A stretch of 64,000 nt of DNA, taken from positions 1-64,000 of the forward strand of contig CALBPI010000061.1 in assembly GCA_937899415.1 (NCBI GenBank). The letters are read 5' to 3'. Numbering within the stretch: the stretch's first letter is position 1; each line of letters starts with the position of its first letter. Under the pieces are notes generated by a model that was not told where the DNA came from, made no database searches, and saw nothing but the letters and a program-made list of their open reading frames with translations. The stretch is from an uncultured Gammaproteobacteria bacterium. GTDB lineage: Bacteria; Pseudomonadota; Gammaproteobacteria; Steroidobacterales; Woeseiaceae. Shown in pieces: positions 26,177 to 28,475 of the stretch. Position numbers and translations under genes: made by a program.

Positions 26177-26793
26177 CCGCATCGCCCCGCGAGCTCGTGC
26201 TTGCCACGGGCAACGCGGGCAAGCAGCGCGAGCTCGAGGCTCTGCTGTCGGGGCTCGAGGTCACGGTCCGTTTGCAGTCTGCATTCGGCTTGTCCTCCGC
26301 CGAGGAGACGGGACTGACCTTTGTTGAAAACGCGATCCTGAAGGCGCGCCACGCGGCGCGCGAGACGGGCTTGCCTGCGCTGGCCGACGATTCGGGTCTC
26401 GAGGTGGATGCCCTGGCGGGCGCACCGGGCGTGTTCTCGGCCCGCTATGCAGGTCCCGAGGCCAGCGATACCGACAACGTCGACAAGTTACTCGCCGCGC
26501 TCGCCGAGACGCCCGACGACGATCGGGGTGCGGCGTTTCGTTGTGTGGTGGTGTTGCTGCGCCACGCCGATGACCCGGCGCCGATCATTCGCGAAGGCCG
26601 CTGGGCCGGGCGGATCGCGCGACAGCCCACGGGCGCGGGGGGCTTCGGTTACGACCCCGTATTCTTCGTGCCAGAGTACGCGGTCACGGCGGCCGAGCTG
26701 GAAACGGCAACCAAGAATGCCGTGAGCCACCGGGCGCAGGCGCTGACGGCGTTGCTGCCGGCGCTCGAGGCCTGGTGCGCGGGTGCCCGCTGA
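26173..26793 (+). CDS. rdgB: XTP/dITP diphosphatase (RdgB/HAM1)
   Basis: House-cleaning pyrophosphatase that removes XTP, ITP and their deoxy forms. 206 residues with the family motifs [34 protein letters not shown] and [16 protein letters not shown]. The GTG start at 26173 overlaps the rph stop codon, and its own end overlaps the hemW start by 11 bases, so rph-rdgB-hemW is a tightly coupled operon. Confidence 0.96.
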
Positions 26794-27934
26794 GCTGCCA
26801 CCGCTGTCGGACTACCTGCACCTGCCCTGGAGCCTGGCCAAGTGCACGTACTGCGACTTCAACAGCCACCGCGTCCCGGATGCGCCCGACACGGCGCGCG
26901 CGGTCTATGTCGATGCCCTTGTACAGGATATTGCGCAGCAGGCGCCGGGCATTGCGGGACGTACCGTCGAGACGGTGTTCCTGGGTGGGGGCACGCCGTC
27001 GCTCTTCACGCCCGAAGAGATTGGGCGCGTCCTGACCGCCCTCGACGAGGCTGTAAGCCTGGCTGCCGATGCCGAGATCACCATGGAGGTGAACCCGGGC
27101 GCACTCGAGCGCGGCAGTTTCGCAGGCTACCGCGCCGCGGGCGTCAACCGGGTCTCGATTGGCGGTCAGAGCTTCGATGCGGCGCAGCTCAAGCGTTTGG
27201 GCCGCCTGCACGATCCGGCCGCCATAGGGCGCGCTGTGGATGCCGCGCGCCAGGCCGGTTTCGAGCGTATCAACGTCGATATCATGTACGCCTTGCCCGA
27301 ACAGTCGGTCGACGCGGCCGTCGCCGATGTGCGCGCCGCAGTCGCGCTGGATCTGACGCACGTCTCGCACTACCAGCTCACGCTGGAGCCCAACACCGTG
27401 TTCCACGCGCAGCCGCCAACACTGCCGGGTGACGATGACGTTGCCGACATGATGCAGGCGACCGACGCGGTGTTTGCTGCCGCCGGGCTCGCACGCTATG
27501 AAGTCTCGGCGCTGGCGGCCCCCGGCGAAGCCTGCCGGCACAACCTTAACTACTGGGGTTTCGGGGACTACCTGGGCATCGGCGCAGGCGCCCATGGCAA
27601 GCTCAGCGATGGCGAGCTGGTGACGCGTACCGTCCGGCCGAATCACCCTCGGGGGTACCTGGACGCTCTGGCGGCGGGCGCTGCGGTGGTCTCACAACCC
27701 GTGTCAGGTTCGAGGCTGGCGTTTGAGTACATGCTCAACGCGCTGCGGCTCGTCGACGGGTTTTCACTGCAGGATTTCGAGGCCCGAACCGGTCTGCCGC
27801 GGGCCGCCGTGACCGGACGCTTGGCGGAGGCCTCAGAGCGTGGGCTCATGCTTGAGCGCGAGGACCATATCTGGCAGCCGACAGCGCTTGGCGCGCGCTT
27901 TCTTAACGACCTGCAGGCGCTGTTTCTCGATTGA
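26783..27934 (+). CDS. hemW: HemW-like radical SAM haem chaperone with an incomplete cluster motif
   Basis: HemW binds haem and a [4Fe-4S] cluster and was long misnamed oxygen-independent coproporphyrinogen oxidase. The 383-residue product follows the family closely ([11 protein letters not shown] start, [57 protein letters not shown]). The radical SAM motif should be CX3CX2C; here it reads [11 protein letters not shown], so the first ligand is Ser17 (codon AGC) while Cys21 and Cys24 remain. No other Cys lies upstream. Cluster binding or SAM cleavage should be impaired unless Ser or a neighbour serves as ligand. The GTG start at 26783 overlaps rdgB by 11 bases. The frame is otherwise intact. 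Confidence 0.9.
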
Positions 27935-28193
27935 TTGAGGCCGCGATTTGGATTTCGTTATTCACATCCGTGAGCGCGCCGCTAAAAAAGTAAGGCAGAA
28001 TGCCACTCGCCTACAGTCAGCACTTCAGAAGCGGCGGTAAGATGCTGAAAAAGATAGTTATTATTTTTTGGCGATATTTTAACCATTTTAAGGGCCGTCC
28101 CCGTGGCATGCGGGATTCAGGCCGTTGCCCAAAATCAATTCACAGAGTTATCCACAGGATTTGTGGATAACCGCGAGCGACGCGGTCCGTGGC
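27935..28193. other. Intergenic region with three consensus DnaA boxes and an AT-rich tract
   Basis: This 340-bp gene-free stretch between hemW and rpmE is much richer in A+T than its surroundings. It holds three exact matches to the DnaA box TTATNCACA: TTATTCACA at 27958-27966 (plus), TTATCCACA at 28148-28156 (plus), and TGTGGATAA at 28162-28170 (the same box on minus). The last two form an inverted pair with a 5-bp spacer. Between the first box and the pair lies a 46-bp AT-rich run (28046-28091) with a T6 stretch that could act as an unwinding element. This resembles a small replication-origin or DnaA-controlled region. It could instead be a DnaA-bound regulatory site for rpmE, whose promoter starts right after it. 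No dnaA, dnaN, gidA or rpmH is nearby. Confidence 0.55.
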
Positions 28194-28222
28194 TTGTCAA
28201 AGGCAGGCCCGGCCTTTATAGT
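28194..28222 (+). promoter_or_regulatory. Sigma-70 promoter of rpmE
   Basis: TTGTCA (-35, 28194-28199), exactly 17 bp, then TATAGT (-10, 28217-28222). Each hexamer is one mismatch from consensus and the spacing is optimal. It lies 53 bp upstream of the rpmE ATG and 24 bp downstream of an inverted DnaA-box pair. Confidence 0.8.
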
Positions 28223-28274
28223 ACGCGGCCTTTTTCCTGACGCGGCGCAGCATTCGCGCGCCTGAGGTCCTGAA

Positions 28275-28475
28275 ATGAAAGCTGAAATTCACCCCGAGTA
28301 CACCGAGATCACGGTGAGCTGCGGTTGCGGGGCAAGCTTCAAGACGCGCTCCACGCTTGGCGAGGACCTGCAAGTCGAAGTATGCGCGTCCTGCCACCCG
28401 TTCTACACGGGCAAACAGAAGATCCTCGACTCCGGCGGTCGCGTAGACCGCTTCAAGCGTCGTTACGGCAAGTAA
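28275..28475 (+). CDS. rpmE: Large ribosomal subunit protein bL31, zinc-binding type
   Basis: A 66-residue L31 of the C+ type: the paired cysteines CGC and CASC that bind zinc are present, with the conserved [20 protein letters not shown] ending. Preceded by a near-consensus promoter and a leader of about 45 bases. gltA follows 124 bp downstream on the same strand; I found no terminator between them. Confidence 0.97.

Follow-up and report, generated by a model that had tools for sequence, protein, structure and literature searches.

What does a cluster of DnaA boxes do between hemW and rpmE? In the window (the whole stretch of DNA analysed, 64,000 nucleotides of a contig from an uncultured bacterium of the Woeseiaceae) the 340-bp gap between these two genes (27935-28274) had been read, from its letters alone, either as a candidate replication origin or as a DnaA-regulated locus such as a DnaA-controlled promoter of rpmE. 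Here we describe the parts of the locus, their conservation in relatives and their likeness to the DnaA-cycle sites of Escherichia coli, and we weigh these readings against one another.

The box cluster and its parts

Exact matches to TTATNCACA number three in the window, where 100 dinucleotide shuffles gave a mean of 0.21 and a maximum of 1, which bears out the sequence-only reading that such boxes would be rare here by chance. All three lie in the gap, of which they cover 213 bp: an outer box, TTATTCACA (27958-27966, plus strand), starting at -190 as counted from box II; box II, TTATCCACA (28148-28156, plus strand); and box I, again TTATCCACA (28162-28170, minus strand), which faces box II head to head across 5 bp. 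These places, the inverted pair included, are as first described, and so is the AT-rich run between the boxes (28046-28091), which is the richest 46-mer of the window (37/46 A/T), no other being as high. The tract overlaps two further putative sites on the plus strand, an IHF-like site, TAAGATGCTGAAA (28038-28050, -110 to -98, 7/9 of the consensus), and a Fis-like site, GGCGATATTTTAACC (28070-28084, -78 to -64, 5/6 of the consensus). A weak box III, CAATTCACA (28136-28144, plus strand, 7/9), is found 3 bp behind box II. The IHF-like site, the Fis-like site and box III of the window are weaker than most of the copies in relatives.

The open reading frames of hemW (26783-27934) and rpmE (28275-28475, ribosomal protein L31) flank the gap and gltA follows, all of them on the plus strand. 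The change of gene polarity that had been placed near the gap holds for the counts (among the 49 called ORFs of at least 150 amino acids, 8 plus and 15 minus to the left, 19 plus and 7 minus to the right), but not for the three genes around the gap itself. The window gave no Rfam match at gathering level and no tRNA in a tRNA search.

The window's own genome contains 23 exact boxes (13 plus, 10 minus) against 22 for a reversed control pattern; as there is no overall excess, the cluster itself is the unusual part. An accidental cluster of boxes would fit the lack of a genome-wide excess, but shuffles of the window reach one box at most and the layout is kept across relatives, which leaves chance with a negligible probability. 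Two more exact DnaA boxes, in the same direction and with starts 177 bp apart, lie at G000:C59:101340-101525 of this genome, and no degenerate second pair was found in it with up to three mismatches.

A fixed layout across Gammaproteobacteria

The element is found across Gammaproteobacteria, in many related bacteria, with the same fixed layout: a TTATCCACA-N5-TGTGGATAA pair with box III 3 bp behind it and, farther out, a Fis-like site, an IHF-like site and an outer box, which lie at -78, -110 and about -190, respectively. With the gap plus rpmE as the query, a same-family search matched 93 of 107 genomes (the window's own included), several of them only over the 30 bases of the pair and without rpmE. 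Among the 29 best-ranked other Woeseiaceae loci the exact pair was present in 28, and the exact outer box in 27 of these. Class-wide, the exact pair occurred in 154 of 370 genomes of at least 90% completeness and was missing from 216; a spacing of 0-14 bp was allowed, and every pair among the matches listed has a spacing of 5 bp.

A scan of the named contigs of GTDB for pairs preceded by an outer box at 186-193 bp, a spacing that is fixed by the manner of selection, yielded at least 118 stretches. The matches listed include Woeseiaceae, Steroidobacteraceae, Methylomonas, Methylobacter, Methylotetracoccus, Sedimenticola, Ectothiorhodospira, Granulosicoccus, Halieaceae, Dasania, Wenzhouxiangella and Collimonas, the last of which is traditionally betaproteobacterial.

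The outer parts were counted in three sets of elements. The first comprises 153 elements selected by an exact pair and an exact outer box at -184 to -196, so that the outer box stands there by selection; they were oriented via the outer box and not via box III. An IHF-like site of at least 7/9 lies within 3 bp of -110 in 146 of them (local shuffles: mean 20.6, maximum 27) and a Fis-like site of at least 5/6 within 3 bp of -78 in 133 (local shuffles: mean 12.8, maximum 20), while each of the last bases of box III, CACA, is kept in 148-153 elements. In the alignment of this set, the interval from the IHF site to the outer box shows no block like the Fis-like site.

The other two sets took the exact pair as their start, and the outer box, the IHF-like site and the Fis-like site played no part in the choice; the orientation of their elements was taken from the better box III, and each element needed 215 bp of upstream sequence together with a box III of at least 6/9. 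Removal of duplicates from 50 class loci (30 from the class search and 20 hand-picked, these mostly from genomes with two pairs) left 41 class elements, and 28 Woeseiaceae elements were obtained from the 29 best-ranked loci, the window's own excluded and the remaining one being cut by a contig end. Within 500 bp of the pair, the 41 class elements have 25 exact TTWTNCACA boxes in the direction of box II at -187 to -193 and five elsewhere (four of these at -176 to -199), and one in the opposite direction; in the 28 Woeseiaceae elements the respective numbers of boxes are 27, one and one. IHF-like sites of at least 8/9 occur in the class elements at -109 to -111 in 23, at -99/-100 in 4 and not at all in 14 (shuffled control: 3), and Fis-like sites of 6/6 at -77/-78 in 8, at -67/-68 in 5 and not at all in 28. 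The Woeseiaceae elements have the IHF-like site at -110 in 20 cases (other places in 4) and the Fis-like site at -78 in 23.

Some variation and multiplicity were also observed. In a subclass of elements (L121, L122, L123, L125, L139 and L145) the IHF-like site, the Fis-like site or both are about 11 bp, one helical turn, closer to the core. More than one exact pair is present in several genomes of the class (five pairs in G269), some with an outer box on both, and an uncultured Ectothiorhodospiraceae contig has two pairs about 1.2 kb apart, each with an outer box (L201, 585-607 and 1741-1763).

Neighbouring genes and the replication origin

A single sigma-70-like promoter, TTGTCA-17-TATAGT (28194-28222, plus strand), was found before rpmE (shuffles: mean 0.3). 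It begins 23 bp past box I, which speaks for a promoter of rpmE under the control of DnaA; the geometry of the element, however, is unchanged beside other genes in other lineages. The context is hemW-rpmE-gltA in the Woeseiaceae, and hemW and rpmE are neighbours also in Steroidobacteraceae and some others. The element adjoins priA in Collimonas, Granulosicoccus, Methylotetracoccus and Sedimenticola, guaA in Methylomonas, a TIGR04282 glycosyltransferase gene in Methylobacter, mtgA in Ectothiorhodospira, a cut rlmKL gene in a Halieaceae genome, a gene with a partial dUTPase match (below cut-off) in Dasania, and proS and rsmA in further class genomes; these identities come from family tests on 27 ORFs from 18 chosen loci, 10 of the 27 being without a family at 1e-10.

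Since the neighbouring genes differ among lineages, the element is not an rpmE operator, and the spacing of the IHF-like site, the Fis-like site and the outer box is probably more than a repressor site needs. We consider it highly improbable that the boxes serve as a DnaA-controlled promoter of rpmE, and the sigma-70-like promoter is a neighbour rather than a part of the element. Of the earlier proposal of a DnaA-regulated locus, the conservation supports a DnaA-binding control locus, while the rpmE promoter is not the main reading because of the varying neighbours. A literature search, with most subscription papers and supplements outside its range, found nothing that joins DARS2, DnaA and rpmE.

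An origin of replication at the gap is likewise unlikely and is not supported. As had been noted, the usual origin markers are not in the window, the neighbours being hemW, rpmE and gltA; the dnaA gene of this genome is located on another contig (C19; 605.3 bits in a profile search), with dnaN after it and, as it seems, rpmH and rnpA before it (all three recognised by eye). One exact box stands before dnaA, and the gap between dnaA and dnaN has boxes and AT-rich DNA of its own, two oppositely directed boxes 25 bp apart being found there. In three closed genomes (G137, G221 and G175; twenty 20-kb samples each) the sign of the GC skew changes at dnaA and about half a chromosome away, and one and the same sign runs across the element, 0.5-1.0 Mb from dnaA. 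The element shares DnaA boxes and AT-rich DNA with oriC, but it differs from it by a head-to-head core instead of head-to-tail arrays, by its place off the skew switch in the three closed genomes and by having no origin genes beside it in the window.

Within the Woeseiaceae the GC-skew check is mixed, G010 favouring dnaA and G105 neither place. In the closed genome G105, dnaA lies at the contig start and the element at 3.997 Mb. The skew summed over 360 kb around the contig ends shows a wide trough that runs from about 4.010 Mb to 70 kb and contains two nearly equal minima of -2088 (the 5-kb step ending at 4.010 Mb) and -2082 (65-70 kb), and the minimum at 4.010 Mb lies 8-13 kb from the element. 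A strand-bias likelihood, for which the G105 baseline was used for G105, G010 and the window, sets the best boundary of G105 at neither place, though nearer to the element (about 17 kb) than to dnaA (46 kb), dnaA being 56.6 and the element 37.2 log units below the best. For G010 the boundary falls about 14 kb from dnaA, which is 12.8 log units below the best, against 111.3 for the element. The log-likelihood ratio for the plus strand as the leading strand of the window is 32.2 to the left and 6.1 to the right, thus there is no sign switch at the gap. Around dnaA on contig C1 of G105 and contig C1 of G010, the GC skew forms a plateau of about 100-120 kb with no sharp switch, as if the origin region had been rearranged.

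The mixed skew in the Woeseiaceae is the reason why the origin is kept as a rival and rejected as the main reading. In this rival, the chromosomal origin of the Woeseiaceae would have moved to rpmE, with the boxes and an AT-rich unwinding region; the three boxes and the tract are indeed present, and in G105 a skew minimum falls near the element and the likelihood is worse for dnaA than for the element. The likelihood in G010 prefers dnaA, however, the skew of the three closed genomes flips at dnaA and not at the element, the strand sign is the same on both sides of the gap in the window, the dnaA-dnaN gap is equipped with its own boxes, and several genomes have two pairs, all of which makes a moved origin very unlikely.

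Resemblance to the DnaA-reactivating sites of E. coli

The function of DARS sites has been worked out in E. coli. There, DARS1, located at bioD-uvrB, reads TAATACACA-N3-TTATCCACA-N5-AGTGGATAA on the minus strand, and the DARS2 core of the rppH-mutH region (MG1655 2969135-2969169) reads TTCTTCACA-N3-CTATCCACA-N5-GGTGAATAA, the core having been placed from the deletion primers printed in PMC4585315, matched to MG1655 by eye. According to the papers on these sites, boxes I-III have identical spacing in DARS1 and DARS2, box I being opposed to boxes II and III (PMC5742627), and the head-to-head arrangement of boxes I and II is termed characteristic and functionally essential (PMC10380432). The window shares the head-to-head boxes I and II with their 5-bp spacing, both of them exact, and has box III in the same place and direction, 3 bp off box II, as a weak copy (7/9).

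The likeness to DARS2 extends beyond this three-box core of identical spacing and direction. DARS2 is reported to require IHF at IBS1-2 and Fis at FBS2-3, and translocation tests imply the order core, IBS1-2, FBS2-3 (PMC4245941). Counted from box II of E. coli DARS2, IHF matches lie at -99 on the same strand and at -83 on the opposite one. A Fis match lies at -137, and the opposite strand carries a full-consensus box from -197 to -189. The IHF matches and this box would correspond to the published IBS1-2 and box V. The IHF consensus at -99 on the strand of box II is shared with 4 of the 41 class elements, a fixed IHF-like site beside the core is held by the group (7/9 in the window's copy), and E. 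coli, too, has a full-consensus box about 190 bp away. The genome of the window encodes IHF alpha (163.6 bits), IHF beta (148.8), Fis (108.8) and Hda (202.3); the models of these four and of DnaA each score above the curated cut-off, hence the proteins acting at E. coli DARS2 are encoded in this genome.

The core boxes of E. coli DARS2 are each one base off the consensus; its outer box is on the opposite strand compared to the elements described here; and the Fis-like site of these elements lies between the core and the IHF site, whereas E. coli has its required Fis sites (FBS2-3) on the far side of the IHF sites. The distance between E. coli DARS2 and oriC is about 0.96 Mb, and the neighbour genes there are others, whereas the element is about 38-193 kb from dnaA in the Woeseiaceae (6 of 8 genomes, those with both on one contig); in other genomes of the class the distance ranges from 54 kb to 1.03 Mb (7 of 9, with both on one contig). 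Two of these departures from E. coli DARS2, in the orientation of the outer box and in where the Fis-like site lies, make the element a variant.

MG1655 was scanned with a matrix derived from the 153 elements, on both strands of six chosen 50-kb stretches (around DARS1, DARS2, oriC, datA and priA-rpmE, and one more) that add up to 300 kb and 597,912 positions. DARS1 ranks first (36.5), a second pair at the DARS2 locus second (23.6), the DARS2 core third (22.1) and a datA box fourth (21.6), close to the DARS2 core; the first two pairs follow from the opposite strand (18.3 and 15.2), and the first eight positions include nothing from oriC. DARS1, the top of the ranking, resembles the element in the spacing and direction of its core, but it is 101 bp long, is reported to need no protein besides DnaA and has no exact box at -190.

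The second pair at the DARS2 locus (MG1655 2969451-2969473; L265 1452-1474) is also head to head with a 5-bp spacing, about 315 bp from the DARS2 core, and has an IHF match at -109; as a candidate for the DARS2 core itself it was ruled out by the deletion primers of PMC4585315.

The main rival is a datA-like element, in which DnaA assembled around an IHF bend near the origin would be inactivated through ATP hydrolysis or titrated. In datA an outer box (-162), a perfect IHF consensus (-97), an inner box (0) and an opposed box 3 bp on follow one another in the same order as here, and both the closeness of the element to dnaA in the Woeseiaceae and the fourth rank of the datA box in the matrix would suit such a relationship. 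However, the opposed boxes of datA are 3 bp apart instead of 5, no box stands at the place of box III, the other distances differ, the reported function is the opposite one, and the essential datA boxes are reported to point all in one direction (PMC5742627). The new elements, moreover, keep box III together with the 5-bp head-to-head pair (the pair being the search key). We judge a datA-like element to be unlikely.

We consider it likely that the gap holds a DARS2-type DnaA-reactivating element, a reading in which structure and conservation are observed and function is inferred from E. coli. Several points weigh against it besides the differences from E. coli DARS2: 14 of the 41 class elements have no IHF-like site of 8/9 and 28 no Fis-like site of 6/6, the IHF-like site and box III of the window are weak, the datA box comes close to the DARS2 core in the matrix, and the exact pair is missing from 216 of the 370 class genomes. 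By analogy, ADP-DnaA would bind boxes II and I head to head, box III would stabilise the DnaA assembly, and IHF and Fis would bend the DNA next to the core. The AAA+ domains, in contact head to head, would then make DnaA release ADP, and the freed DnaA could take up ATP and start replication at an origin elsewhere, probably that between dnaA and dnaN. The outer box, about 190 bp away, may reach the core across the IHF bend, or it may be a feedback site like box V of E. coli, from which assembled ATP-DnaA is reported to displace Fis as a negative feedback (PMC8682772). DARS activity is also reported to be lowered by transcription through the site, and chromosomal position to matter (PMC5010248).

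The DARS2 core has been described as conserved among gammaproteobacteria related to E. coli (PMC4245941), and the species in which homologues have been shown extend to Vibrio cholerae and Shewanella denitrificans (PMC8682772). Similar sequences are mentioned for many proteobacteria (PMC10380432). No description of the layout with the outer box and the Fis-like site was found in the DARS literature searched, most subscription papers and supplements lying outside the search. A broader proposal can be put forward tentatively, namely that a wider DARS2-type element with a rigid plan serves many Gammaproteobacteria, Collimonas among them, as their general DnaA-recycling site, that E. coli DARS2 and perhaps datA are rearranged relatives of it, and that the outer box, about 18 helical turns from the core, senses the state of DnaA and is looped onto the core. 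Boxes IV-VI of DARS2 are reported to be dispensable for the stimulation of initiation in E. coli (PMC4245941), which speaks against a required outer box and lowers the probability of this wider element; we regard it as possible but rather doubtful.

The layout, in which an outer box is kept at about 190 bp and the core and the IHF site enclose a Fis-like site, provides a sharper search pattern for DARS2-type elements, and it points to a site of the DnaA cycle in the Woeseiaceae, a family represented here mostly by metagenome assemblies.
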